A stretch of 64,000 nt of DNA from Acidobacteriota bacterium. GTDB taxonomy: Bacteria; Acidobacteriota; Terriglobia; Acidiferrales; UBA7541. The DNA is taken from NCBI GenBank assembly GCA_013289585.1, contig JABCZR010000015.1, positions 1 through 64,000 on the forward strand, in the 5' to 3' direction. A model generated the notes under the pieces. That model searched no databases and was not told the DNA's origin. It saw nothing but the letters and a program-made list of their open reading frames with translations. Position 1 is the stretch's first letter. Every line of letters starts with the position of its first letter. The translations under genes and the position numbers were made by a program. Positions 26,795 through 45,058 of this stretch are shown here, piece by piece.

Positions 26795-27949
26795 CTAGGC
26801 CTTTTGCGCCTGGCGGCGGAGGAAGGTCGGGACGTCCAGATCGTCCGCGGGAACGTCGTGGTTTACTTCACGGACATTCTGCTGGACCTGGTGAACGATG
26901 TTCGGCGGAGCCTGCTGCACCGGCGCCTCCGGGATGTCTCGCCCGGCTTTCCACGTCTTGGGCAGAAATGACGGCTTCTGATGCATGTTCTTTTTGTTGG
27001 CGTCCTTGAATCCGGCGGCGATCACGGTGATCTTGATGGTGTCCTTCATGTTGTCGTCCTGGACGGCGCCGAAAATAATGTTGGCATTCTCGTGCGCGGC
27101 TTTCTGGATAACGCTCGACGCTTCGTGAACTTCATGGAGCGTCAGGCTGGAGCTGCCGGAAATGTTGATGAGAATTCCCTGCGCGCCCTGAATGGAATTG
27201 TCTTCGAGGAGCGGGCTGGCGATGGCGCGATTGGCGGCATCGACGGCACGGTTCGTGCCTGTCGCTACAGCGGTGCCCATGACCGCATAACCCTGTCCGT
27301 GCATGATGGCTTTCACGTCGGCAAAATCACGGTTGATAATGCCGGGCACGGTGATGATGTCCGAAATGCCCTGCACGGCTTGGCGAAGGATGTCATCGGC
27401 AATGCGGAACGCGTCAAAGAAGCTGGTGCCGCGTTCGACAGTTTCCATCAGGCGCTCGTTGGGGATGACGATGACGGTATCCACGGCGCCGATGAGCTCC
27501 TGAAGCGCCTGCTCGGCTTGCATCATGCGACGCTTGCCTTCGAACGCAAACGGCTTGGTCACGACGGCGACGCTGAGCGCGCCCAGTTCGCTGGCGAGCG
27601 AAGCCACTACCGGCGCCGCTCCGCTTCCCGTGCCGCCGCCGAGGCCGGACGTGATGAAAATCATGTCCGAGCCTTCGAGCGCTTCAATAATTTTTTCCGT
27701 GTCCTCGAGCGCCGCCTTGCGGCCGACCTCGGGATTTGCGCCCGCACCGAGCCCCTTGGTCAGCTTTGCGCCGAGCTGCAATTTCACAGGCGCTTGCGAA
27801 AGCTTCAACGCCTGCAAGTCGGTGTTTGCCGTGATGAATTCCACGCCTTCGAGCTTGGCGCGAATCATGCGGTTGACCGCGTTGCACCCGCCCCCGCCCA
27901 CACCGATGACTTTAATCTTCGCTGGCTGCAGCTCCTCGCTGAAGCTCAT
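26795..27949 (-). CDS. ftsZ: Cell division protein FtsZ
   Basis: [23 protein letters not shown]-terminal [11 protein letters not shown]. Confidence 0.97.
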
Positions 27950-28022
27950 GCGAATTCCTGCTTCTCTTGCTGTCATATCTCCCCCAGACTTCTCCAGTTT
28001 CGCCAGCGGCTCTCGGGCAGGG

Positions 28023-29240
28023 TCACGAGGCGCCGGCGAACATGGCCTTCAATTTGGATACAAGATTTCCAGCACGCTGCGGCGAACTGCGCCGCGCCCG
28101 CGCGCCGTACAATACAAGACCGACTACCGTTGCATATTCCGGCTGCGCTACCTGTTCCGGCAGCTCAGCCAAGCCCTTTGGTTCCGCAATGCGCACCGGC
28201 AGATGGAACGCCTGCTCGGTGAGTTCGTCCAAGCCGCGCAATCGTGCGGCGCCGCCCGCCAAAATAAATCCTGCGGGAATTTGACCGTCCAGGCCGGCAC
28301 GCTGCAAATCGTCACGGATCAGTGAAAGCAATTCCATGGCGCGGGGCTCGATAATGTCCGTGAGCATGTGCGCGAAAATGTTGCGCGGCGGACGGTCGCC
28401 CACGCTGGCAATTTCGATGGCGCCCTCTTCCTTCTTGATGAAAGCGGAGGCGGCACAACCGTGTCGACGTTTTGTCCTCTCGGCTTCGGGAATCGGTGTG
28501 CGCAGACCGACGGCCAGATCATTTGTGAAGTGGTCGCCGCCAATTCCCACGGCGCTCGAATGACGGACCACACCGCTGCCGTAAACAATCAATTCCGTTG
28601 TGCCGCCGCCGATGTCCAGGAGGCAGCAGCCGAGATCGCGCTCGTCCTGGGTGAGGCAAGATTCCGCAGAAGCGAGGGGCTCAAGAACAGTATCGCTGAT
28701 GAGGATACCGGCCTTGTTCGCCGCCGTGACAAGATTCTGCGTGGCGGCGACGGAGGAAGTTACGAGATGAACGTTGACTTCCAGCCGATGTCCGACCATG
28801 CCGATGGCGTCGCGAATGCCGGTCTGCGCGTCCACCATAAATTCGTGAGGGAGAACGTGCAGCACTTCGCGGTCTTCGGGAAGGGTGATATTGCGCGCGG
28901 CATCCACGGCGCGGCGCACATCATCGCGTTCGATGTCCCGCGGACGATGGCCCAGCGTGATGCCGCCACGGCTGTTGACGCCGCGAACGTGGCTTCCGGC
29001 CACACCAATCAAGGCCTCTTCGACGGGAACGTTGGCAACGCTCTCCGCTTCCTCCACGGCGCGGCGAATCGAGCTGACAGTAGCATCGAGATTGACGATC
29101 AGGCCCTTGCGCAGTCCCTTGGATTCAGCCGCGCCAAGCGCGAGAAACTTCACCAGCTCGCCTTCGACTTCCGCGATGAGCACGCAGGTTTTTGTGCTGC
29201 CGATATCCAGCCCAACCAGGTATTTGTCTTTCTTCGCCAA
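28023..29240 (-). CDS. ftsA: Cell division protein FtsA
   Basis: [31 protein letters not shown], position next to ftsZ. Confidence 0.96.
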
Positions 29241-29261
29241 GCCGCCGCTCCTGCGATGAAT

Positions 29262-30194
29262 CTATTTTGATTTTCTGGCGATCGTGCCCGAGCCAGGTTC
29301 GGGATTCACGATCACTTGCCGCAAATATTGCAAATCGATGGATTGCACGCGACCAGTGTTGGCCTGCCATTGCGAGAAATTGTCCACCAGCATCTTGTAC
29401 TTCCCGGCGAATTCTCCGGAGCCGAAGTGAACGGTGACGGCCTGCGAATCGGTGGGACCCGCAAGGCCAGTCATTACGGCACGCAGATCCTTGGGATTCG
29501 AAAGATCGATCTCGCTGACGCAATTTGCAGAGCCCGCGCGCACCAGTTCGACAGCTTTCATGAATTCCTGATAAATCTGCATGCGCTTTTCGCGCTGGTC
29601 GCGAGCCAATTCATCCGAAACGCCGCTGACGACCGGAAACCGCAACTCCTCGCCTTGTGGGCGGTCGAGAATTACACCGTGGACATCAATGACCGCCAGT
29701 TCATTTCCATTTCGCACAAATGCGATGGGCGTGCGCTCGGTCAATTCCACGCGAATACGGTTCGGCAGGATCCGCAGCACGCTGGCGGATTCCACCCAGG
29801 GAATCTGTTCGATCTCGCTACGGCGAGTGTCCAGCGGAACTTGCAGCACGCTCCCGGAGCGGTCATGCACGAACTGCTGCAACACTGCTTCGCGAGCGAC
29901 GATGTGATTTCCGTTCAGCTCAATCTGTTCCGGCTTCGTCAACAGCATGGTTGGCGAATAGAGCAGGAACCGCGTTCCATAGACGGCCACAGTCAATCCC
30001 GCGATCCCCATCGCACTCAGCACCAGCACCCGGCGATAGAACGGCCATCCGCGCCCGGTGAATTTTTTTCGGCGGATTTCGACCGGTTTTTGCCGGCGCA
30101 AGTAACGCGGCTCATCGTCGGCAATCAGCTCCGGCCGGTAGGCATCGGCCTCCGCTGCCGCCGCGTTCCTTTGCAAAGCCTTTACGCGTTCCAA
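29262..30194 (-). CDS. ftsQ: Cell division protein FtsQ/DivIB (POTRA)
   Basis: TM then IELNGNHIVAREAVLQQFV POTRA; WVESASVLRILPNRIRVELTERTP. Confidence 0.92.
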   Translation of the reverse strand: MERVKALQRNAAAAEADAYRPELIADDEPRYLRRQKPVEIRRKKFTGRGWPFYRRVLVLSAMGIAGLTVAVYGTRFLLYSPTMLLTKPEQIELNGNHIVAREAVLQQFVHDRSGSVLQVPLDTRRSEIEQIPWVESASVLRILPNRIRVELTERTPIAFVRNGNELAVIDVHGVILDRPQGEELRFPVVSGVSDELARDQREKRMQIYQEFMKAVELVRAGSANCVSEIDLSNPKDLRAVMTGLAGPTDSQAVTVHFGSGEFAGKYKMLVDNFSQWQANTGRVQSIDLQYLRQVIVNPEPGSGTIARKSK

Positions 30195-31090
30195 ACGACC
30201 ACCTCGTTCTCCAGCTCGACGCCAAAGGCCTTCTGCACGCGCCCACGCACATCGGCAATCAGCGCCAACATGTCCTTGGCTGAAGCCTTTCCTGCATTTA
30301 CGAAGAAATTGGCATGGCGGTCGCTGACTTGCGCATCGCCAACGGCGTGGCCTTTGAGTCCGAGCTCATCAATCATTCGGCCGGCGGACGCACCGGCAGG
30401 ATTTTTGAAGATGCAGCCGGCGCTTTTCTGGCCAAGCGGCTGACTTGCGCGCCGTTTTTCGTTGCAGATACGAATCCCTTGGAGAATTTCCTTGAACGGC
30501 TTGGAGGGTAGTTCCAGCGTCACCGAAAGCATCATATCATCGGGCGCAAACGAAGTGTGTCGGTATTCGAAAGAAATTTGATGGCCGCGGAGGAATTCGA
30601 TCTTGCGTTCGGCTGCCCGGTAGAGTTTTACTTCGCGAACGTAGCTGCCGATCTGCATACCGTACGCGCCGGCGTTCATTCGAAGGGCGCCGCCGACGGT
30701 GCCGGGAACTCCGATCAGCCCTTCCATTCCCCCCAAATCGTTCTTCGCGCAAAAAGTGACCGTGCGGCCGAGGTCCGCGGCGGCGTCCACGTGCGCAAGA
30801 TTGCCTTCCAGGACGACGTCCGGTTCGGGACCAACCAGTTGCAGCATCACCCAAGGCAATTCGCCGTCGCCGACAAGCAAGTTGGAACCGCCGCCCAGGA
30901 ACTTGTGCGGGATGTGATTCGAATCGAGAAGCTTCATGAGATGGGGGATGCTCTCGTGCTTCTTGATGCGGAGCAGATCAGCGGTACCACCGATGCCAAG
31001 AGACGTCTGATCGGCCAGGGAAATGCCCGGTTGCAGCTCGACGGCGAGCTTCGTGAGCCTGGCGACGATTTGAGGATCGCTAATGCGCAT
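30182..31090 (-). CDS. murB: UDP-N-acetylenolpyruvoylglucosamine reductase
   Basis: [41 protein letters not shown]. Confidence 0.96.
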
Positions 31091-32486
31091 GAGTCGTCGG
31101 ATGCTCCGTTCCGAGCAAAACCATCAGCTCGTTGCTGGCACGGCTGATGCTCCCCGCACCAATGGTCAAAATGGCGTCGCCGGGGTGCGCCTGCTTCAAC
31201 AGAAATCCGATGCCGTCCTGCATGGAACGAAAATAGTGAACGTTTTTGTGGCCGGCTTCGCGAATAGCCTGGGCTAGCGCTTCGCTGGTCACGCCCGGGA
31301 TAGGCGCTTCGCTTGCGGCGTAGATGTCGGTCAATACGAGAATATCCGCCTGGTTGAACGCGCGGCAGAATTCATCCCACAAATGCTGCGTGCGGCTATA
31401 ACGGTGCGGCTGAAAGAGCACCAGAAGGCGATTGAACTTGCATACCCGCGCCGCTTCGAGAGTGGCGCGGATCTCAACCGGGTGATGCCCGTAATCGTCA
31501 ACGACAGTAATCTCGTTGACCACGCCTTTAACGTCGAAGCGTCGGCCCACTCCGGCAAACTTGACCAGTCCTTCCCGAATCAGGTCCGACGCAACGTTCA
31601 GATACAGCGCCACCGCCGCCGCGGCCGCTGCGTTCCGGACATTGTGCATGCCAGGAGGATGCGCCAAGCGAAAAAGGCCGAGGTCATCGCCCTTGTAGGT
31701 AAGACGGAATTCGCTGCCAAGGCCTTCGAGTTTTACATCGCTAATCACCAGGTCGGCCTGGCTCGAAGTGCCGTATGTGATGATGGGCCGCTTCACGTCA
31801 GGAATAATCGCCTGCACATTGGGCTCATCGATGCACAGAATCGCCGCGCCGTAAAACGGAACACGATTCACGAACTGGATGAACGCATCCTGAATGTCCT
31901 GGAGCGAAGAATATTGATCCAGGTGCTCGCGATCGATGGTCGTCACGACCGCAACAACCGGCGCGAGCATCAAAAAGCTGCGGTCACTCTCGTCGGCTTC
32001 CACTACAAAATATTCGCCTTTGCCAAGCCGCGCCGTCGTTCCTGCCTGGTTGACGCGTCCGCCGATGACAAAAGTTGGATCGAGATGCGCGGCCGCAAGC
32101 ACCGAAGCAACCATGGAAGTCGTGGTGGTCTTGCCATGCGCGCCCGCGACAGCGATGCCGTATTTCAAACGCATCAGCTCGGCAAGCATCTCCGCGCGCG
32201 GGATCACCGGAATTTTACACTTGTGCGCTTCGACGACTTCTGGGTTGTCTGCCTTCACCGCAGAGGAAGTGACCACCACGTGCGCTCCGTCTGCGTTCGC
32301 GGCTTTGTGGCCCTCGAAGATGGTCGCGCCGAGATTCTGCAGCCGTTCTGTAATGGTGGAGAGCTTGACGTCCGAGCCAGAGACCGAATAGCCGAGCGTC
32401 AGCAACACTTCGGCGATACCGCTCATGCCGATACCGCCGATGCCCACCAGGTGAATGCGCTGAAAATTGCGGAAGGAGACCATCAT
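31080..32486 (-). CDS. murC: UDP-N-acetylmuramate-L-alanine ligase
   Basis: [48 protein letters not shown]. Confidence 0.97.
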
Positions 32487-33580
32487 GAACTTGTCCTCTG
32501 CCGATTTCCCTGCACGTTCGCGGCCTCCTCAATCAAATTGACAATATCCCGCGCAGCGTGCGGCCGGGCGAGCCCGCGCGCAGCGGTTGCCAGCTTTTCG
32601 ATCTCCTGGGGTTGGTCGAGGAGAGAGAAAATTTCATTGGTCAGTTTATCAGGGGTGAGTTCCGACTCGGAAATCAGCCGGCCGGCGCCCGCGCGCGACA
32701 TTTCCTGCGCGTTGCGCAGCTGATGGCTGTCGGTGGCTCTTCCAAAAGGAATAAAGATGGCCGCGCGGCCCGCGGCGGCGATTTCCGCCGCGGTGATGGC
32801 TCCTGCGCGGCAAACAATCACGTCGGCCCAAGCAAAACGCTCCGGCATGTTGGTCAGGAAGGGCACGACCTCCGCATGGATTTCGCGCCGCGCGTATGCG
32901 GTGCGCACAGCATTGTAATCGCGTTCGCCCGTCTGATGCACGATGGCCAGTTCATTTTTTCGCGTGGCGAGGCGGTCCATGGCGTCAACGAATGCGCGGT
33001 TGACCGGCAGCGCGCCTTGGCTGCCGCCGGTGATCAACAGCCGGAAAGGCATCCCCATCTTTCGCGGAGCGATGGAGAAAAACTCCGGGCGCACCGGGCA
33101 GCCGGTAACAATGGCTTTTTTTCCCCACACCTGTGCAGAAACTGCATACCCGGTCGCGATCCGCGCGGAAATTCGCGCCAGCACTTTGTTGGTGAAGCCG
33201 GGCTCGGCGTTCGGTTCAAAAATGACGTTTGGCACGCGGCCCAGCCAAGCCGCGAGCAGCATCGGGCCTGCGGCGTAGCCGCCGACTCCGAATGCTGCAA
33301 TGGGCTTGTGCTTCCCAAGAACGCGCTGCGCATCCAGCATCGCCGGAGCGAGCATTGCCAAATTCCTGAGCAGCGTTGCTCCGCCTTTACCTTTCAAGCC
33401 GGCCACGCGCAGCGTTTCCAGCGGCAGTCCCGCTTGCGGCACCAGCTTCATTTCGATTCCGCGCTCCGTTCCCACCAGCACCACTTCCCTCTCGTTCCCT
33501 CTCGAAAGCCATTCCTGAGCGATCGCCAGCGCCGGAAAAACGTGACCGCCCGTTCCACCGCCTGCAATCAGCAATTTCAC
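32483..33580 (-). CDS. murG: UDP-N-acetylglucosamine transferase MurG
   Basis: [53 protein letters not shown]. Confidence 0.97.
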
Positions 33581-33596
33581 GTGGGGCGCCCGCTCC

Positions 33597-34715
33597 TCAC
33601 GCTTCCGCCGCTTGCTGCGAAATATTCAGGAGCACGCCGGTTGCCAGCAGCATCGCCAGCAAACTCGATCCGCCGTAGCTGATGAACGGTAGCGGGATTC
33701 CTTTTGTGGGAACCATGCCGAGCACCACTGCGAAATTAATGAGCGCCTGGCTCATCACCATCGCGGTAATCCCCAGCGCCAGCAGCCTTCCGAAACCATC
33801 CGGCGCGGAAAACGCGGCGCGCATTCCCCTCCAGCCGTAGACCACAAACAGCGCGATGATGACCATCGCGCCGATGAACCCCAGTTCTTCGCAAATCACG
33901 GCATATATAAAATCCGTGTGCGCCTCAGGAAGGTAGAAAAGTTTTTGTTTGCTCTCCATCAGGCCAACGCCGGTGAATCCTCCCGAGCCCACGGCGATGA
34001 GCGACTGCAACAATTGAAATCCCGCTCCTTGCGGATCGGAATCCGGATGGAGAAACGCCATCAGCCGTGCTTGGCGATAGGCGACGTGAGTAATCAAGAG
34101 ATAAAGAACGGGCATCGCGGCCACAGCGCCGGCAGCGATCCACTTCCAGGAAAGGCCGGCGACGTAAAGAACTGCTGTCGCAACGAGGACGATTTCGATG
34201 GCGGTACCCAAGTCTGGCTGCAGGAGCACCAAAGCCACACAGATCAGGATTGGTCCCGCCGCGGGAAGAATGGTTTGCATGAAATCCTCTTTGCAAAATT
34301 CCATTCCGGCTTTGCCGCGGCGCTTGAGGTCGAGGAACCACGCCAGATAGAGAATCACGGCGAGCTTTGCGAGTTCCGAAGGCTGGATGTTGACGGGACC
34401 AATCTTGATCCAGCGGTGCGTGGCGTGAGATTTATCCAGGAAAAAAGTCCCGACGAGCATGAGCAGAACCACGCAGACGACTGGGTAGATGACCCCAGGT
34501 TCGCGCAGCTTGCGATAGTCGGTGCGCATCAGCACGAACATTCCCGTAAGGCCGAGCAACAGCCACGCCGCCTGCCGCGCCAGAAAAATGTAGGAATGGC
34601 CGTATTGTTGTTCCGCGGTGACCGCGGAAGCGCTGAGAATCATCACCGCGCCGAACAAACATAGCGCCAGGGTCACTCCAAACAGCCATCGGTCGTTTTC
34701 GAGTCGTCTCGGCAC
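33597..34715 (-). CDS. ftsW: Lipid II polymerase FtsW (SEDS)
   Basis: Polytopic; HTDFIYAVICEELGFIGA; PTKGIPLPFISYGGSSLL. Confidence 0.96.
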   Translation of the reverse strand: MPRRLENDRWLFGVTLALCLFGAVMILSASAVTAEQQYGHSYIFLARQAAWLLLGLTGMFVLMRTDYRKLREPGVIYPVVCVVLLMLVGTFFLDKSHATHRWIKIGPVNIQPSELAKLAVILYLAWFLDLKRRGKAGMEFCKEDFMQTILPAAGPILICVALVLLQPDLGTAIEIVLVATAVLYVAGLSWKWIAAGAVAAMPVLYLLITHVAYRQARLMAFLHPDSDPQGAGFQLLQSLIAVGSGGFTGVGLMESKQKLFYLPEAHTDFIYAVICEELGFIGAMVIIALFVVYGWRGMRAAFSAPDGFGRLLALGITAMVMSQALINFAVVLGMVPTKGIPLPFISYGGSSLLAMLLATGVLLNISQQAAEA

Positions 34716-34721
34716 GTCTGC

Positions 34722-36113
34722 TCACCTTCCCCCTGAACTTGTACTTGCGGCATGCCGCTCTAACTGATGCACCAAATCTTTGAAGACCCGTCCACGGTGC
34801 TCGTAGTTTTCAAACTGGTCGAAGCTGGCGCAGGCGGGCGCGAAGAGCACAACATCCCCAGGACGCGCCGCGTGTGAAGCGATCTCCACCGCGCGCTCGA
34901 TAGTTCCGGCGCGCTCGATGGCCACGCTCCCGGCGATTTGTTTTTCAATTTTCTCCGCCGCCGCGCCAATCAGCAGCGCGAGAATGGCTTTTTCGCGCAA
35001 CAGCTTTTGCAGCGCAGTGTAGTCGCTGCCTTTGTCTTTCCCGCCAAGGACCACGAGGATCCTCCCGGGAAAAGAATCCAGTGCCTTCAGCGTGGCATCC
35101 ACGTTGGTGGCTTTCGAATCGTTGTAGTAGCGCACGCCGCCAATCTCCGCGACAAACTCCAGCCGGTGCTCCACGCCTGAAAACGAGCGCACCCCTTTGG
35201 CGATGGCCGAGGCGTCCGCCCCGGCGAGCCGCGTAGCCGCTACTGCGGCCAGGACATTTTCCACGTTGTGGGCACCAGCCATCGAAATATCCTGAAGCTT
35301 CAGCAGGGTTTCTTCATTTCCGTCGCGCCGAAAAACAATCTCATTTTCGCGAACGAATGCGCCTTGCGCTACGCGCTGCTTCCTGCTGAACCAGAACACC
35401 TGTGGCTTTGCCGGCGCATATTTTGTGGTCGCCGGATCATCCGCATTCAGCACGGCGCTGTCCGCTTCCGTTTGATTCTCGAAAATCCGCGCCTTGGCCG
35501 CGCCATATTCTTCCAGCGTGTGATGGCGGTCGAGATGGTCCGGCGTGAGATTCAGAAACACACTGATGTTTGGCCGAAAGCTGTCGATCAGCTCGAGCTG
35601 GAAGCTGCTCAGCTCTACCACCGTGACGCTCGCGTCGTTTGTCTCTTCTACTCGCGAAATCAGAGGCGTGCCGATGTTTCCCGCAAGAATTGTGGAGATT
35701 CCGGCGCTCCTCAAAATGTGTTCGATCAGCGAAGTGGTGGTGGTCTTTCCATTCGAACCGGTGATACCGATCAGGCGACCATTCAAGAACCGATCCGCCA
35801 GTTCGATTTCACTCCAGATTGTGATGCCTTTCGCGCGCGCAGCTTTCAACAGCGGCGCGTCCGCGGGCACACCAGGACTCGGAATGATCAAATCCTGTTC
35901 CAGAACTGTTTCTTCCCGGTGGCCACCCAATTCAAGATGAACTCCCGCGGTCCGCAACTGGGAAAGCACTTCGCCAATTGCGTTTTCCGTCCGCGCATCC
36001 GTGGCGGTCACGCTTGCGCCGCACGCGGAGCAAAAAAGCGAAGTGGCTACACCCGTCCTGGCCAGTCCTACGACCAGCACGCGCTTGCCTCGCAATTCGA
36101 ATGCATTCGCCAT
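34722..36113 (-). CDS. murD: UDP-N-acetylmuramoylalanine-D-glutamate ligase
   Basis: VLVVGLARTGVA, GITGSNGKTTTTSLI, NDSKATNVDATLKAL, LFAPACASFDQFENYEHRG. Confidence 0.97.
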   Translation of the reverse strand: MANAFELRGKRVLVVGLARTGVATSLFCSACGASVTATDARTENAIGEVLSQLRTAGVHLELGGHREETVLEQDLIIPSPGVPADAPLLKAARAKGITIWSEIELADRFLNGRLIGITGSNGKTTTTSLIEHILRSAGISTILAGNIGTPLISRVEETNDASVTVVELSSFQLELIDSFRPNISVFLNLTPDHLDRHHTLEEYGAAKARIFENQTEADSAVLNADDPATTKYAPAKPQVFWFSRKQRVAQGAFVRENEIVFRRDGNEETLLKLQDISMAGAHNVENVLAAVAATRLAGADASAIAKGVRSFSGVEHRLEFVAEIGGVRYYNDSKATNVDATLKALDSFPGRILVVLGGKDKGSDYTALQKLLREKAILALLIGAAAEKIEKQIAGSVAIERAGTIERAVEIASHAARPGDVVLFAPACASFDQFENYEHRGRVFKDLVHQLERHAASTSSGGR

Positions 36114-36147
36114 CGGTCTCGCAAAACCCTCTCAACCAAATGCCTAG

Positions 36148-37293
36148 CTACCGCAATTTCAAAGTTGTCAGCGCAAACAGCGCGAACACCAGCGCGACAA
36201 TCCAGAACCGCACGATCACTTTCGATTCGCTCCAACCCATCAACTCAAAATGATGATGGATGGGCGCCATTCGAAAGATGCGCTTGCCGCGCAACTTGAA
36301 GGAACCAACTTGCAAAATCACGGAAAGCGCTTCAATCACGAAAATACCGCCCACGAAAAAGAGCAGAATCTCCTGCTTAATGATCACCGCAATGGTGCCC
36401 AGCGTTCCGCCGAGCGACAACGAACCCACGTCGCCCATGAAAATTTCCGCGGGATGCGCGTTGTACCAGAGAAACCCCAGCGAAGCTCCGACAAGTGCGC
36501 CGCAAAATACAGTGAGTTCGCCGACACGCGGGATGTACTGAATCTCCAGATAAGTTGCCCAGCGGTAGTTGCTGCTCACGTAAGTCAAAACAGTCAGCGC
36601 CCCGGCTGCAATCACCGTGCAACCGATGGCCAAGCCATCGAGGCCGTCCGTCAGATTTACCGCATTCGAAGAGCCCACAATGACGATTGCGGTCGCCACG
36701 AGAAACGGCACAAACGCCAGCGGCCAGAGATGCCCGGAAAAGTGGGATTGATCCAGGAGCGAGTGCACTACCAGATCCGGACGGAAACGTTTAAAAAAAG
36801 GAAAGACGAACTGCGTCGAGTAGGCGCTGTACGTGGCCAAAACCAAAAGCACCACGCCGACGATCAAGCTGACGAAAACCTGGAAGTAGATTTTTTTCTT
36901 AGCCGTAAGCCCCAGGTTGCGCTGCTGCGAAACTTTGGCGTAGTCATCAATGAATCCGATGACCGCAAAACCGAACAGTGCTAAGAGCGACAGCAAAATA
37001 AACGGATTGGTCAGATCCGCCCAGAGCAGCACCGGTACAGCTGTCGAAAGAACGATCAGCACGCCGCCCATGGTGGGCGTGCCCGCCTTCTTCTTGTGCT
37101 CTTGTGGCCCTTCTTCGCGGATGAACTGTCCAATCTGCAATTCGCGTAAGCGGCGAATGAGCCACGGCCCGAACACCAGCGCAAGAAACATCGCCGTTAG
37201 GCTGGCGTACACGGTCCTGACCGTGATGTAGCGGAATACGTTCAGCGGGCTGAAATACTTCTGCAAGACGTGGTAGAGGAGGTAGTACAGCAT
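36148..37293 (-). CDS. mraY: Phospho-N-acetylmuramoyl-pentapeptide transferase
   Basis: KKAGTPTMGGVLIV, FIDDYAKV, NLTDGLDGLAIG, PIHHHFELMGWSE. Confidence 0.97.
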   Translation of the reverse strand: MLYYLLYHVLQKYFSPLNVFRYITVRTVYASLTAMFLALVFGPWLIRRLRELQIGQFIREEGPQEHKKKAGTPTMGGVLIVLSTAVPVLLWADLTNPFILLSLLALFGFAVIGFIDDYAKVSQQRNLGLTAKKKIYFQVFVSLIVGVVLLVLATYSAYSTQFVFPFFKRFRPDLVVHSLLDQSHFSGHLWPLAFVPFLVATAIVIVGSSNAVNLTDGLDGLAIGCTVIAAGALTVLTYVSSNYRWATYLEIQYIPRVGELTVFCGALVGASLGFLWYNAHPAEIFMGDVGSLSLGGTLGTIAVIIKQEILLFFVGGIFVIEALSVILQVGSFKLRGKRIFRMAPIHHHFELMGWSESKVIVRFWIVALVFALFALTTLKLR

Positions 37294-37294
37294 C

Positions 37295-38734
37295 TCAGTG
37301 CTTTACCTCCTGGTCTGATTTTTCGCCCGGGACGGCGTGCCTCACGATGAGCACTTCGACGATGCGCTCCATCTTCACGCCGCGTGAGCCTTTCACCAGT
37401 AGCAAATCCCCTGAGACCAGAAGGTCTTTCAAATACTCAGCTGCCTCTTCGGGTGTCGCGAAGAATTTAGCCTGCGCCCGCGGAAAGCCGGAGGCCACCG
37501 CGCCTTCCACGATTTCCGCGGCATCGCCAGCCACCGCGATTATCGAATCGATTTTGCCCGTCTTCGCGGCAAATTTTCCCGCTTCCCGGTGCAATTCGCG
37601 GGATGCTGTGCCGAGCTCGCGCATTTCACCCGCAACGAGGATGCGACGCCGAAAACTTGGTGTGGCCGCCAGCAGCTCCGTCATCGCCTGCAGCGCCGCG
37701 GGACTCGAATTGTAGCTATCGTTGATCAGCGCCGCTCCATTCGAAAACCGCAAAAGTTCACCGCGCATCGCGGGCGCGCGCAGCGAGCGGAACACGCTTT
37801 GCGCTTCCGCTGCTCCAATATTCCAAACGCTCGCCGCCGCCAACGCCGCCAAAGCGTTGGCAATCGCGTGATACCCCGGCACCGTCAACTCCAGCCGCAC
37901 ACGACCTTCCGGACTGACGTAGTCAAACGACGAGCCAAACGCCCCGCGGTCTTCAATCTCCTGCGCCATGAAGAATGCCTGCTTTTCAATTCCATACGTC
38001 AGGACACGTCCAGGTGCGAACGAGCCAAACGCCGCCACGCGTGGATCATCCGCGTTCAGCACTGCCGTCGAATCATGCCCATTCAATCCTTCGATCAGCT
38101 CGCGTTTCGCAAGCGCAATCTCATCCACCGACGAAAAAAACTCCAAATGCGCCGGCGCAACGCGCGTCACCACTCCAACATCCGGCTTGGCAATCGCCGC
38201 CAGCCGCGCCAGCTCACCGCGCCGCGACATGCCCATCTCCAGCACCGCTGCTTGATGCGTTTCTTCCAGCCGGAACAGCGTCAGCGGCAGCCCGTACTCG
38301 TTATTCAGGTTCCCTTCCGACTTCAATACCCGCAGCTTCGAGCCCAGCAATGCCGCCAGGATCTCCTTCGTGGTGGTCTTACCGACAGAACCTGTGACCC
38401 CGGCAATTTTCCCGCCCCAGGCTTCGCGCACCGCACGCGCGAGTTGCTTGAGTGCCTCGAAGGTGTCTGCCACGGCGATGCAGCGGCTGCTGACTTCGCC
38501 CGGGTACTTCGAAAGACGCCCTTGCGCCACCACTGCCGCGATCGCTCCACGCTCCAGCGCAATGCCCACATGATCGTGTCCATCGTGACGCGGTCCGTGG
38601 ATGGCGATGAACAGTTCTCCGGCACGTACCGTGCGAGAATCAATCGAGACGCCGGCCACCCGGGCCAGGGGGTCGAGTTTCGTTCCCGGCCGAGTACCCA
38701 GAGCGCCAGCCACTTGTGCAATCGTCCACCGCAT
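37295..38734 (-). CDS. murF: UDP-MurNAc-tripeptide-D-Ala-D-Ala ligase
   Basis: GVTGSVGKTTTKEILAALL, LEMGMSRRGELARLA, LINDSYNSSPAAL, LVKGSRGVKMERIVE. Confidence 0.96.
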   Translation of the reverse strand: MRWTIAQVAGALGTRPGTKLDPLARVAGVSIDSRTVRAGELFIAIHGPRHDGHDHVGIALERGAIAAVVAQGRLSKYPGEVSSRCIAVADTFEALKQLARAVREAWGGKIAGVTGSVGKTTTKEILAALLGSKLRVLKSEGNLNNEYGLPLTLFRLEETHQAAVLEMGMSRRGELARLAAIAKPDVGVVTRVAPAHLEFFSSVDEIALAKRELIEGLNGHDSTAVLNADDPRVAAFGSFAPGRVLTYGIEKQAFFMAQEIEDRGAFGSSFDYVSPEGRVRLELTVPGYHAIANALAALAAASVWNIGAAEAQSVFRSLRAPAMRGELLRFSNGAALINDSYNSSPAALQAMTELLAATPSFRRRILVAGEMRELGTASRELHREAGKFAAKTGKIDSIIAVAGDAAEIVEGAVASGFPRAQAKFFATPEEAAEYLKDLLVSGDLLLVKGSRGVKMERIVEVLIVRHAVPGEKSDQEVKH

Positions 38735-38864
38735 AAGTTCCTCAAAGGGTTCTTCTTAACCGCACCAACCACGCCAGGTTGTGTTCTCACCGTTTTGAGG
38801 GTTCCTCCTTTCGAGAGGTGACCAATGGCACTAGCGCCCTCGTAACAGCTTCTATTCAAGCGCG

Positions 38865-40511
38865 CTAAGTGCCAAACCCGTTGTCCGAACCGCCCGGCGG
38901 CTCTCCTTTTGCCTGGCCGCCTGGCGGCTCGGAAAATCCACGCTGGCGAAGCGCGCGGCGCGCCTCGATGCGATCGTCAAATTCGAAAGTGCGGTCCGCC
39001 AAAATCTGATAATTCTCGTGACCCTTTCCGGCCAAAAGCACGATGTCTCCCGCGCGCGCTTCATCCATCGCCAGCCCGATGGCTTTTTCGCGGTCCGGTT
39101 CGATCAAATATTTCCCCGCGGTTTTCTGCAAGCCGACGATGACGTCGCTGATGATTTTCAGCGGATCCTCGCTGCGTGGATTGTCGCTGGAAAGAATCGT
39201 CAGGTCGCTCAGCCTTCCAGTTACTTCACCCATGACCGGCCGTTTCGTGCGATCTTTTTCGCCGCCGCACCCGAAGAGCGTGATGACTCGCCCTTTAGGA
39301 TTCAACTCGCGCGCCGTTCGAATCAGATTTTCCAGCGCATCGTCCGTGTGGGCGTAATCCACAATCACCAGAAACGGCTGCCCGAGATCAATCCGTTCGA
39401 AGCGCCCGGAAACGCTCTGTAGGTTTCGAATACCCTTTTCGATCACTTCGTTCGAAAGGCCAAGCGCTTGCGCCGCGCCAATCGCGGCCAGCAGGTTGTA
39501 GACGTTGATGCGCCCCACCAGCGCAGACTCCACCTGCACTTTCCCATTTGGCGTTTGCGCCGTGAACGTTAAACCGTCGAACGCCAGCTGGAATTTCTTC
39601 GTGGTGATGTCGGCAGGCGATTCCAACCCATAAGTTACGGTGTTCTTCGGGAGTCCCGCCAGCCGTTTCCCGAACTCATCGTCGGTATTCAGCACCGCCA
39701 CTTCCGGAACACCCGCTCCCGTGCCTTCAAAAAGTTTTCTCTTTGCTGCAAAATAATCTTCAAACGTCTTATGGTAATCCATGTGTTCGCGAGTCAAGTT
39801 TGTGAACACTGCGGCTTGAAAATGGCAGCCCCAAACGCGATCCATCGCCAAGGAGTGCGAGCTTGCTTCGAGAACGGCGTACTTCCCGCCTGCGTCGCGG
39901 ATCTCCGCGAAAAACCCCTGCAGGTCCACGGACTCGGGGGTGGTGTTCGACGCGGGATAATCACCAAGCGGCGTGTGATACGCGATAGTCCCGAACAAAC
40001 CTGTCTGCGCGCCGGAAGCCTTCACGATTGCATCGATCACAGACGTTGTCGTCGTTTTCCCGTTCGTTCCGGTCACCGCAACGAGCTGCAACGCATTTGC
40101 AGGCTTCCCAAAGAAATTCGCGGACGTAATCGCCAGCGCTTTGCGCGCGTCGCGCACCTGAATCCACGTCACACCTTTCGGCGCCGCGCTAGGTACAGGC
40201 TCAGCACTTGCAATGGCCACGGCTCCGCGCTTCACCGCATCCTGGATGAACGCGTTTCCGTCCGCCTTGGCGCCATGCAGCGCGAAAAAGAACGCCCCCG
40301 GCAGCACTTTGCGCGAATCGCAAGCCACCTGCAGGATTTCCAGATCACCCACGCCGGCGGCCACGGCGGTTTCTGTGCCTTCCAATAATTCGCTCAATTT
40401 TCTTCGAATGGCTGCCCTGTCTCGGTGAGCAGACGGATTCCCTGGGTTGGCGGCTTCGTTCGTGGTGGCGTCCCGTGCCTGGTCTTCTTCTTGGCTCAAT
40501 CCAATTTTCAT
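38865..40511 (-). CDS. murE: UDP-MurNAc-L-Ala-D-Glu-diaminopimelate ligase
   Basis: AVTGTNGKTTTTSVID, FTNLTREHMDYHKTFEDY, SDNPRSEDP (the DNPR pattern typical of mDAP-adding MurE). Confidence 0.96.
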   Translation of the reverse strand: MKIGLSQEEDQARDATTNEAANPGNPSAHRDRAAIRRKLSELLEGTETAVAAGVGDLEILQVACDSRKVLPGAFFFALHGAKADGNAFIQDAVKRGAVAIASAEPVPSAAPKGVTWIQVRDARKALAITSANFFGKPANALQLVAVTGTNGKTTTTSVIDAIVKASGAQTGLFGTIAYHTPLGDYPASNTTPESVDLQGFFAEIRDAGGKYAVLEASSHSLAMDRVWGCHFQAAVFTNLTREHMDYHKTFEDYFAAKRKLFEGTGAGVPEVAVLNTDDEFGKRLAGLPKNTVTYGLESPADITTKKFQLAFDGLTFTAQTPNGKVQVESALVGRINVYNLLAAIGAAQALGLSNEVIEKGIRNLQSVSGRFERIDLGQPFLVIVDYAHTDDALENLIRTARELNPKGRVITLFGCGGEKDRTKRPVMGEVTGRLSDLTILSSDNPRSEDPLKIISDVIVGLQKTAGKYLIEPDREKAIGLAMDEARAGDIVLLAGKGHENYQILADRTFEFDDRIEARRALRQRGFSEPPGGQAKGEPPGGSDNGFGT

Positions 40512-40512
40512 C

Positions 40513-42654
40513 CTAAGGCCTGACCCTCTGCTTCGGCTTCTCTATCTTTGATGCCGGTGCTCCGAACTGCACGGTGATCTTTGCGCCCCGCCGGAGTTTC
40601 GCCCCGACCGCAGGCGTCTGATTCGTTGCAAGACCACTGCCAACGAGAACAGGGTCCAATCCCAGGTGGATGCAAGCCTCAGTTACCTCGCGCATCGTCT
40701 TGCCGGAAAAATCCGGGACCTCAATATCCCCACCTTCGTCCACAGCCACTGTCACCGCAGGCGGCGCGCTCTTGCTCTCTTTCGAATTGGGCACCGAAGT
40801 CTCCGCGGGAGGCTGATCGGGCAACCCCGAAAAATCCGCCGGCGTAAAATCTTCCAGCGCCGCACTATCGGAAACGTCACGACTCTTGTACGAAGCCTGC
40901 ATCAGCTGCGAACCCACCGGCACGTCCCGCGGCACATCCAGATATGGCAGCACCTGCTCGGCGATGCGCTTGAAGACCGGCGCCGCTACCATCCCGCCTT
41001 CATGCAGTCCGACCGGGGAATCCAGAGACACCAGGATGGCCACCGCAGGATTGCTGATGGGCGCAAACCCCGTAAAAGACGCAATGAAATGCGTCGGCGA
41101 ATATCGCCCTGTCGCCGGATCTATTTTTTGTGCCGAACCGGTTTTGCCGGCCGCGGTCCAGCCATCGAGGTGTGCTAGTTTTCCCGTCCCATTCAGCACT
41201 ACACCTTCCATCAAACGCCGCAGTGTCGCCGCCGTCTCCGGCCGAATCACTCGTCTGGGCTCCGCCGGAGCGAGCGGACCCTCCGCTGGCAAGACCTGCT
41301 CGCCCCGCCGCAGCTCTGCAATCACATGCGGCTTATAAAGCATTCCGCCGTTGGCAATCGCTGAGACGGCGCTGATCAGCTGAATCGGCGTAACGCCAAC
41401 TTCCTGGCCCATCGAGATGGACCCGATCGACACTGGCGTCCAGTTTTCCAGCCGCCGCAGCAGTCCCTTGCTCTCGCCCGGCATGTCCACGCCTGTGGGT
41501 TGGCCAAAACCGAATGTGCGAATGTAATCGTAGAATTTCGGCGCGCCCAGCCGCAGGGCAATCTTGATGGCGCCCACGTCGCTGGATTGCGCCAGAATGT
41601 CCGCTACACTCAAGAGGCCGAACGGCTTGTGGTCGCGAATGCGGTGCCCGGCAATATAAACGGCGCCATTCTCGCAATCGAAGACTTCCGTAGGCCGCGT
41701 AATTCCCTGGTCAAACGCCGCTGCCAGCGTGATCAATTTGAAAGTCGATCCCGGTTCATACAGCGCGCTGATGCCGCGGTTCATCCGCGATTCCGCCGGC
41801 GCATCGTTCGCCGCGTTCGGATTGAACTTCGGCCAATTCGCCAGCCCAAGGATTTCCCCGGTGCTGGGATTCATCACGATCGCCGTTCCAGCGATGGCAT
41901 GCGTCCTGGCGATCGCCACGGCAAGCTCACGCTCGGCGATGTATTGGACTTTCTCATCCAGCGTGAGCACCACATTCGCGCCACGCTCCCGCTGCGCCTC
42001 CCCGCCGTCGAACCAGCGTTGCCGCGCGTCGGCCATCACGATGATCTTTTCGCTCTTACCGCGAATCTGGCTGTCCAGTTCGTACTCGATGCCGCCCAGG
42101 CCCTTTTCGTCCATGTCCACAAAGCCGAGTACGTGGGAAGCGAGATCGCGCTTCGGATAAAACCGCTGATTTTCCTTCTGGAAATACACGCCTTTCAGAT
42201 TCAGAGCTTCCACCGCTTCCCTTTTTTCCGGAGGGAGCTTGCGTGAAATCCACACAAACGTGCGCGACGATTCCAGCCGCTGTTCCAGCACGTCCCGCGG
42301 GATTCCCAGCACTCCGGAAAGCAGCCGCGCCGCGAGCTGTTCGTCGGCAAGTTCCGAAGGCACGGCGAACGCTGAATCCACAGGAATGCTCATTGCCAGG
42401 GGATGCATATTGCGATCGAAGATCGACCCGCGCTTTGGAGTGATCTCGATGACGCGCTTCTGCTGCCGCTGCGCGCGTGCCATGTAATCGCTATGTCGGA
42501 GAAGTTGCAGGTAGCCCAGACGGCCAAGAACCGCGGTCATCCAGATCGTCGCCAATAGTCCGACAATCAAGATGCGTTTCGCAGCCATGCGTCTACGCTC
42601 ACTGCTGGCAGGAGCGCGATCACCCGAAGCGGCGTGGAGACGGTTCTGTTGCAT
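40513..42654 (-). CDS. ftsI: Peptidoglycan D,D-transpeptidase FtsI/PBP with C-terminal PASTA domain
   Basis: YEPGSTFKLITLA (SxxK), AAGKTGSAQKID (KTG), terminal VPDFSGKTMREVTEACIHLGLDP PASTA. Confidence 0.95.
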   Translation of the reverse strand: MQQNRLHAASGDRAPASSERRRMAAKRILIVGLLATIWMTAVLGRLGYLQLLRHSDYMARAQRQQKRVIEITPKRGSIFDRNMHPLAMSIPVDSAFAVPSELADEQLAARLLSGVLGIPRDVLEQRLESSRTFVWISRKLPPEKREAVEALNLKGVYFQKENQRFYPKRDLASHVLGFVDMDEKGLGGIEYELDSQIRGKSEKIIVMADARQRWFDGGEAQRERGANVVLTLDEKVQYIAERELAVAIARTHAIAGTAIVMNPSTGEILGLANWPKFNPNAANDAPAESRMNRGISALYEPGSTFKLITLAAAFDQGITRPTEVFDCENGAVYIAGHRIRDHKPFGLLSVADILAQSSDVGAIKIALRLGAPKFYDYIRTFGFGQPTGVDMPGESKGLLRRLENWTPVSIGSISMGQEVGVTPIQLISAVSAIANGGMLYKPHVIAELRRGEQVLPAEGPLAPAEPRRVIRPETAATLRRLMEGVVLNGTGKLAHLDGWTAAGKTGSAQKIDPATGRYSPTHFIASFTGFAPISNPAVAILVSLDSPVGLHEGGMVAAPVFKRIAEQVLPYLDVPRDVPVGSQLMQASYKSRDVSDSAALEDFTPADFSGLPDQPPAETSVPNSKESKSAPPAVTVAVDEGGDIEVPDFSGKTMREVTEACIHLGLDPVLVGSGLATNQTPAVGAKLRRGAKITVQFGAPASKIEKPKQRVRP

Positions 42655-42739
42655 GGCGAATCAGATCGAGGATCGCTCCGGGTACTGAGTCATAAAATTG
42701 ACAGCAAATTCTCGGGCGATAAACCCGGGCGGAACGAAG

Positions 42740-43156
42740 CTACTGCGCGCGGTTAGGCCGGATGTAGCGCGCTGCGGCCACTTCCGCGCCAGACGGCGCG
42801 TCGTATTCCCGCATTTGTTCTGGCAACGGTTCCGTCAAGCCCAGCTGCTTCCGGGCGATCACGTCGATGCGCATCGGATTCCGCAGCCCGGCAATCTCCA
42901 GCTTCAGCGAAGAATTCAGCGAGGCTGCTTCGGCTTGCTTGCCCTTGACGTCTTCGAGCTGAAAGCTCAGGTCAATGCAGCGAAAATGCTGGTAGATGTA
43001 GAGCATGAAACACATCGCAACGATGCCGCTCAGCGCCACCGTGCGGTAGAGATTGCGCATCTTCACCGGCTCGACGTGGCGCATCAGGCGCGAGTTGTCG
43101 ATGCGCTTGACCGTCTGAAATTCCAACATCGCTGCTGCTTTTTTCTTCCGTGCCAT
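42740..43156 (-). CDS. ftsL: Cell division protein FtsL-like
   Basis: Single TM followed by coiled-coil; position between rsmH and ftsI; start set at MARKKKA. Confidence 0.8.
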   Translation of the reverse strand: MARKKKAAAMLEFQTVKRIDNSRLMRHVEPVKMRNLYRTVALSGIVAMCFMLYIYQHFRCIDLSFQLEDVKGKQAEAASLNSSLKLEIAGLRNPMRIDVIARKQLGLTEPLPEQMREYDAPSGAEVAAARYIRPNRAQ

Positions 43157-43175
43157 ATCGCTACCCTGCCCGCCG

Positions 43176-44063
43176 TTATTCGACCGGCATTCTTTCCGCA
43201 CACCGCAGCTTCGCGCTTCGCGAACGCGGGTTGCCCGACATCTCTTCCTCACTGGGCTGGATCACGTGTTTCGTCAGCACGCGGAGCGTTCCTGCTCGCT
43301 CTCCCTCTTGAAACGCATGCTTCACCAGGCGGTCTTCCCGCGAGTGGTAGCTCAACACCACCCAGCGGCTGCCCGAATTCATTGTGGCGGGGGTCCGAGA
43401 AAGAAACTGCCCGAGTTCCTCCATCTCTCGATTCACCGCTATCCGCAGCGCCAGAAACGTTTTTGTTGCGGGATGCAGTCTCTGCCTTCCCCATTGCTTT
43501 CGGGCCCCTGCCACAATCGTTGCCAAGTGCGCGGTATCCCGAATGGGCCGCGCTCTCACGATCGCCTTGGCGATTCTTCTGGAATCGTGCTCATCCGCTT
43601 CCCGGTAGAGCAGGTCGGCAATTTCATTCTCCGACCAGCGATTCACAATCTCGTCTGCCGTCAATTCGTCGTTGGCAGTGTCCATCCGCATATCTAAGGC
43701 AGCAGCCTCGCGAAACGAAAATCCCCGCGCGGCTTGATCAAGCTGCATGCTCGAAACTCCCAAGTCGGCCAAGACCCCGTCCACCGGCGGAATCCCCAAC
43801 TCTTGCGCGACCTCCGCAATCCTCGAGAACGGCGACTGCACCAGCGTCACCTTCTCCCCGAAATCCTTCAACCGCTCCCGCGCCAGTTCTAACGCCTGTG
43901 CGTCCCGGTCCAGGCTGATCAACCGTCCGGAAGTCAGCTTTTCCGCGATTGCCGCCGAGTGCCCGCCGGCTCCCAGCGTGGCGTCGATGTACGTTCCTTC
44001 CGGCTTTATTTGCAGCCATTCCAGCACCTCATCCAACAGCACCGGCGTGTGCGGCGCGCTCAA
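43176..44063 (-). CDS. rsmH: 16S rRNA (cytosine1402-N4)-methyltransferase
   Basis: HTPVLLDEVLEWL, DATLGAGGHS, DGVLADLGVSSMQLDQAARGFSF. Confidence 0.97.
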   Translation of the reverse strand: MSAPHTPVLLDEVLEWLQIKPEGTYIDATLGAGGHSAAIAEKLTSGRLISLDRDAQALELARERLKDFGEKVTLVQSPFSRIAEVAQELGIPPVDGVLADLGVSSMQLDQAARGFSFREAAALDMRMDTANDELTADEIVNRWSENEIADLLYREADEHDSRRIAKAIVRARPIRDTAHLATIVAGARKQWGRQRLHPATKTFLALRIAVNREMEELGQFLSRTPATMNSGSRWVVLSYHSREDRLVKHAFQEGERAGTLRVLTKHVIQPSEEEMSGNPRSRSAKLRCAERMPVE

Positions 44064-44075
44064 TCTTGCAAAACC

Positions 44076-44516
44076 TTAAATTCCCAGGTCTTCCAAAGCC
44101 TTGTCGTCTTCTTCGGTATAGGGCGAATTCTTCATGTCGTCCAGCACGCGCGTATGGTTCATGACCTCGAGGTAATCAAGGTTGCCGAACACGTCCACTT
44201 CTCCCCTCATCTGCGCCGATTCACGCAACACCGGGGGCACCAGCACTCTGCCCTGTCCATCCAACTCCACCGTCTGCCCGTAGTAGCTCGTTCTCATCAG
44301 AAATTTTCTCTTCGCCCGGTTCTGGCTCGATACCTTTGCCAGCTTGTCCTCAATCTCCATCCAAACCTTCATCGGATAAATGCGCGCCGATTCGCCTGTC
44401 GGGCTGGTAATGTAGAATTGGTTGCCATACTCTTTTAGTGCATCGAGAAACACGGCGGGTATCTTCAACCGGCCCTTCTCGTCTACCTTCGCTGGACAGT
44501 TGCCCCGCAGGTTCAT
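44076..44516 (-). CDS. mraZ: Transcriptional regulator MraZ
   Basis: Duplicated AbrB-like KVDEKGRLKIPA and ELDGQGRVLVPPVLRE. Confidence 0.95.
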   Translation of the reverse strand: MNLRGNCPAKVDEKGRLKIPAVFLDALKEYGNQFYITSPTGESARIYPMKVWMEIEDKLAKVSSQNRAKRKFLMRTSYYGQTVELDGQGRVLVPPVLRESAQMRGEVDVFGNLDYLEVMNHTRVLDDMKNSPYTEEDDKALEDLGI

Positions 44517-44580
44517 ACGATTTGCTCGACGCGACCCTTATTTGCCCCGGATCGCACACGAATATGTGGTCTAATATGGC

Positions 44581-44681
44581 CAAAATGCCCACTTTCACCA
44601 CAACTTATGCTGTCTGTCTACTTTGCCCCAGTGCCCGCTACAACTCTCTACTTCTGCCCACTTCCTACCACTTCTTGCCAC
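44581..44681 (-). promoter_or_regulatory. Array of ~9 GTGG-type direct repeats with ~10-bp period upstream of mraZ (predicted MraZ operator)
   Basis: Minus strand: gTGGcaagaaGTGGtaggaaGTGGgcagaaGTAGagagttGTAGcgggcaCTGGggcaaaGTAGacagacagcataagttGTGGtgaaaGTGGgc. Confidence 0.75.
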
Positions 44682-44980
44682 ATCATAGGCCCCTTTGCAT
44701 CCTTGTCAAGAGGAATCATGCATTTTTTAGAAAATAGTTGTGGATTCCTGCCAGCCGAGATTGGTGGGATTTCCCTACCACCGCTTGTGCTCACGATTTC
44801 CGAACAAGGCTAGGCTTTGTGGTGCACTTCTTAAAGAATTTCGGTGCCATCTCGCGCGTCTCGCTCCTGCTTTCCTGTACCTATTTGGAACTCCCTCATC
44901 CCGTTAAACTCTTCTCCCCCGGCGCAGGTCGTGTTATTCTATGCGGGTCATAGAGAGCTTTTTCCACAAGGAGCCAACTC

Positions 44981-45058
44981 ATGGAATGGACCACCCCTCA
45001 GCACGAAGAAATTGATTTGAACTGCGAAGTCAGTTCCTACGCTAACGCCGAACTCTAA
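44981..45058 (+). CDS. pqqA: PQQ precursor peptide PqqA
   Basis: MEWTTPQHEEIDLNCEVSSYANAEL; ExxxY (E16/Y20) motif; RBS AAGGAG; directly upstream of pqqB. Not in the ORF track. Confidence 0.9.
   Translation: MEWTTPQHEEIDLNCEVSSYANAEL

Follow-up and report, generated by a model that had tools for sequence, protein, structure and literature searches.

The window analysed here, a stretch of 64,000 nucleotides from an Acidobacteriota bacterium, carries on its minus strand a dcw cluster headed by mraZ, whose start codon is at 44516 (Table 1). The genes downstream of mraZ are rsmH, an ftsL-like gene, ftsI, murE, murF, mraY, murD, ftsW, murG, murC, murB, ftsA and ftsZ; the individual mur names were taken from cluster order, with several of these genes belonging to multi-member Pfam families. 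The whole MraZ protein scores above the PF02381 cut-off and contains two repeats of the MraZ/AbrB type; the DxxxR motif of each repeat (D12-R16 and D86-R90) is kept in the alignment with E. coli MraZ. The protein matches the solved MraZ structures weakly. The gene is an intact, full-length member of the family. No clear Shine-Dalgarno sequence precedes mraZ. A small hairpin (CGATCC...GGGTCG, 44528-44552, minus strand) lies shortly 5' of its start, in which inspection by eye suggests a compensatory change from C-G to U-A at two related loci (L014 and L016); the automated alignment counted none. A pqq operon with pqqB/pqqC-type genes is located upstream of mraZ in the divergent orientation, and a PqqA-like short ORF (44981-45058, plus strand, MEWTTPQHEEIDLNCEVSSYANAEL) is found at its start.

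Table 1. Features at the mraZ locus (window coordinates)
Feature	Position	Strand	Details
mraZ, 146 aa, presumed repressor binding the array	44076..44516	-	Pfam MraZ PF02381, 58 bits, two stretches
Rest of the dcw cluster	26795..44063	-	Pfam matches
Conserved leader element	44565..44603	-	GTGG at 44601 and 44592, 9 bp apart, then inverted CCAC
Predicted MraZ-like boxes 4-7	44618..44651	-	GTAG at 44651, GTAG at 44641, CTGG at 44631, GTAG at 44621; distal, mostly TAG
Predicted MraZ boxes 1-3	44658..44681	-	GTGG at 44681, 44671 and 44661; proximal TGG module over the predicted start site
Predicted sigma-70-type mra promoter	44682..44709	-	TTGACA at 44709, 16-nt spacer, TATGAT ending at 44682; 11/12 consensus matches

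Between the two operons, an array of boxes is read on the minus strand from 44681, at the place and on the strand where an earlier note on this DNA had put it. Seven decamers follow one another in exact 10-bp steps and open with GTGG three times, then with GTAG, GTAG, CTGG and GTAG, so that boxes 4-7 are in phase with boxes 1-3 and all seven have a TGG or TAG core over the span 44681 to 44618. Scoring these two cores over the 465-nt intergenic region, at most four of the seven in-phase positions were filled in 5000 dinucleotide shuffles, compared to seven in the real sequence, and when periods from 6 to 15 were scanned, period 10 gave 7/7 and every other period 4 or fewer. Both the 7-box pattern and its first part, GTGGN6GTGGN6GTGG (boxes 1-3), occur once in the 4.73-Mb genome, and no further MraZ site was detected genome-wide with the triple-GTGG pattern. 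Among 297 genomes sampled over the phylum, the 7-box pattern otherwise matched only a simple repeat of the TTAGA type and one more tandem repeat. The 10-bp-phased array is therefore real and far beyond chance.

Box 1 lies directly 3' of the -10 element of the mra promoter. This arrangement is shared by this genus of soil bacteria: a promoter with at least 9/12 consensus matches and a 16-nt spacer adjoins the array in 28 of the 29 distinct members, and the first box directly follows the -10 element in all 28 scored cases. From the promoter consensus, the mraZ start site is predicted inside box 1, at ~44675, which would place the boxes within the transcribed mraZ leader.

The earlier note had counted about nine boxes. 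Seven are in phase, but the next 10-bp step after box 7 (box 8, 44611) holds no box, and the last step measures 9 bp: a GTGG at 44601 (box 9) returns to the 10-bp phase and the following one (44592-44589) comes 9 bp on. These two final GTGGs are contained in a nearly invariant stretch of ~40 nt, TTGTGGYGAAAGTGGGCATTTTGGCCATTCTAGACCACA, present in about half of the genus genomes. Its core is nearly invariant across 15 aligned sequences, and the element, also found at loci L004-L007, L011, L013-L021 and L024, was detected upstream of mraZ and nowhere else. In genomes with a clear copy, its distance to box 1 is mostly 80 bp and otherwise 79, 92 or 96 bp. Since this distance is not fixed to multiples of 10, we regard it as an element separate from the array. 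Boxes 9 and 10 belong to this element, whose phase with the array is not kept in relatives, and the nine-box reading was rejected on these grounds together with the absence of box 8 and the 9-bp step. In the leader downstream of the array, the conserved element included, none of the 15 pairs predicted from the folded alignment covaries, and a search of Rfam with the leader returned no match above chance; a structured RNA leader was discarded on both counts.

Conservation was assessed on 110 mraZ upstream regions extracted at the genus, family, order and class levels; 29 distinct genus loci and 80 other loci were scored. The relatives known by name are Acidobacteria gp2 and Candidatus Acidiferrum genomes. 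Three GTGG boxes at period 10 (at least 10 of 12 letters) were present at 29/29 distinct genus loci and 74/80 other class loci, whereas only 2 of the 110 coding-region controls of mraZ reached this threshold. The 10-bp phase is kept among the relatives, and the layout of a -10 element followed by GTGG boxes every 10 bp is found upstream of nearly all of the ~110 related mraZ genes. Triple arrays of the AAGTGG type are confined to the region upstream of mraZ; the other matches in relatives have unrelated spacers and are at the control level. Within the genus, the mean number of in-phase boxes is 6.1 out of 7 in the true register and does not exceed 0.41 in any of the nine others. By a lenient count, class loci outside the genus mostly have 3-5 boxes and genus loci mostly 5-8. 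All seven TGG/TAG cores are intact at 14/29 genus loci and six of the seven at six more; roughly every second distinct member keeps 4-6 of the seven cores intact. Box 4 or boxes 6-7 were lost in several genus members. In a subclade formed by L027, L028 and L031, 4-5 boxes are followed by a different leader sequence.

The proximal and distal boxes differ in their core. Boxes 1-3 have a TGG core in 85/87 genus box positions, whereas boxes 4-7 have TAG in 80/116 and TGG in 12/116. The T and G of the distal cores reach a pairwise identity of 0.76 within the genus, compared to 0.39 for the spacers, which argues that the distal cores are constrained and not drifting. What these sequences add, in a modest way, is a predicted operator that was lengthened across the genus and has two kinds of box, TGG proximally and TAG distally, with the phase kept while the spacers diverged. 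TAG is not among the MraZ box types described in the literature cited here (PMC7761207, PMC5282649, PMC8475190), and boxes 4-7 could bind MraZ poorly or not at all.

The array was compared to documented MraZ sites. In Burkholderia cenocepacia, the fragment bound by MraZ contains four repeats of 7 nt separated by 3-nt spacers, located over the transcription start site and downstream of the -10 element (PMC7761207). As in this promoter, PmraBc, the acidobacterial repeats are direct, recur every 10 bp and lie 3' of the -10 element, overlapping the predicted start site, but seven boxes are in phase instead of four and their cores are TGG followed by TAG. The E. coli Pmra sequence has three GTGG decamers and one GGGG, and its repeats are MraZ sites according to Eraso et al. 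2014, as reported in PMC7761207 and PMC8475190. In E. coli too the decamers, of the form GTGGG, directly follow the -10 element upstream of mraZ; an extended TAG module is absent. The mollicute site, (AAAGTGK N3)3 (Fisunov et al. 2016, as given in PMC5282649), resembles the array by its AAAGTG core, its 10-nt unit and its single chromosomal operator in M. genitalium, in which MraZ represses its cluster (PMC8475190). It is shorter, and the third core base remains G, as opposed to A in the distal boxes described here. Measured against the E. coli sequence and the published systems, which represent the comparison outside the Acidobacteriota, the seven boxes make an array about twice as long as the 3-4 boxes known, a difference of size and not of kind. 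With most class relatives having 3-5 boxes as well, the earlier description of the array as longer than usual holds for seven boxes.

Its position at the mra promoter, the GTGG motif at 10-bp steps, the class-wide conservation and an MraZ with both DxxxR motifs strongly support the array as the predicted MraZ operator upstream of the dcw cluster, in agreement with the earlier note. MraZ binding to such boxes and the resulting repression are taken from other species, and autorepression of the dcw cluster by MraZ appears to be the best explanation, since such repeats are MraZ sites in E. coli, B. cenocepacia and mollicutes. We consider it likely, with a probability of roughly 85%, that the array is the dcw MraZ operator, lengthened in this genus, with boxes 1-3 serving autorepression and boxes 4-7 adding a binding platform. 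MraZ made from the first gene of the cluster would bind the three strong TGG boxes, which cover the predicted start site just after the -10 element, and would thereby block transcription of its own operon. The four mostly-TAG boxes, on the same face of the DNA, would lengthen the platform into the transcribed leader and probably bring in, at lower affinity, more MraZ subunits or a second ring, which might tighten or grade the repression. Weaker binding to the TAG boxes and stepwise loading of MraZ are inferred, as is the graded or cooperative control put forward in the earlier note; stepwise or multi-ring loading is plausible. More speculatively, we propose a two-grade operator in which the TGG boxes nucleate MraZ and the weaker TAG boxes let a second ring or a continuous assembly spread into the leader, which would turn simple autorepression into concentration-graded repression or a roadblock, while the separate ~40-nt element of the leader would offer one more place for MraZ to dock; this proposal is doubtful.

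The alternative that survives best is that only boxes 1-3 (or 1-5) form the working MraZ operator and that the distal TAG boxes are idle relics of an older, longer array. The 3-4 boxes of published arrays, the 3-5 boxes of most class relatives and the loss of box 4 or boxes 6-7 in several genus members all fit such relics; however, the TAG cores of boxes 4-7 hold their phase and their identity of 0.76 against 0.39 in the spacers, and the change was specifically to TAG and not to random triplets, which makes this explanation rather unlikely. Considerably less probable is a role of the distal boxes at the RNA level, as GUAG/GUGG repeats for an RNA-binding protein or as part of a structured leader, and not as DNA sites. 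They are located downstream of the predicted start site and would thus be transcribed, and the leader can be drawn with hairpins further downstream. However, their strict spacing of 10 bp, which continues the register of boxes 1-3, is consistent with a single DNA face, no Rfam family was matched, and the folded alignment of the leader downstream of the array has no covarying pair. That a regulator other than MraZ binds the array is hardly credible: the mollicute HsdC also uses direct repeats with a GTG core (PMC5282649), but nearly all relatives have the array at mraZ, the genome contains no second copy, and the boxes agree with those bound by MraZ in distant bacteria.

A reach of the array toward the divergent pqq operon, which the earlier note had raised, finds no basis, since the array starts after the -10 element and runs the opposite way, into the mraZ leader and away from pqqA. 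No phased array was detected on the pqq side of the intergenic region, with a best in-phase count of 2/3; such a reach was rejected, and control of pqq is unsupported.

Few bacterial regulators are as conserved as MraZ. To our knowledge, the way in which MraZ rings engage repeated boxes and the signal sensed by MraZ are poorly understood. The identification as an MraZ operator is right and ordinary, and the finding is mainly an extension of known autoregulation by MraZ to the Acidobacteriota; the genus-wide extension with two box types is the unusual part and of moderate interest. Operators ranging from 3 to 7 boxes, with two core types, form a natural series in the class next to closely similar MraZ proteins and are ready material for asking how repression depends on the number of boxes and on their core sequence.

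Five loci of the same genus or family (L107, L116, L124, L132 and L137) have a second mraZ-like gene elsewhere, ~46-56% identical, with no GTGG array upstream of it. In the subclade with the different leader sequence, a perfect hairpin, ACGTTC...GAACGT, is present in L027 and L031 and was recognised by eye in L028.
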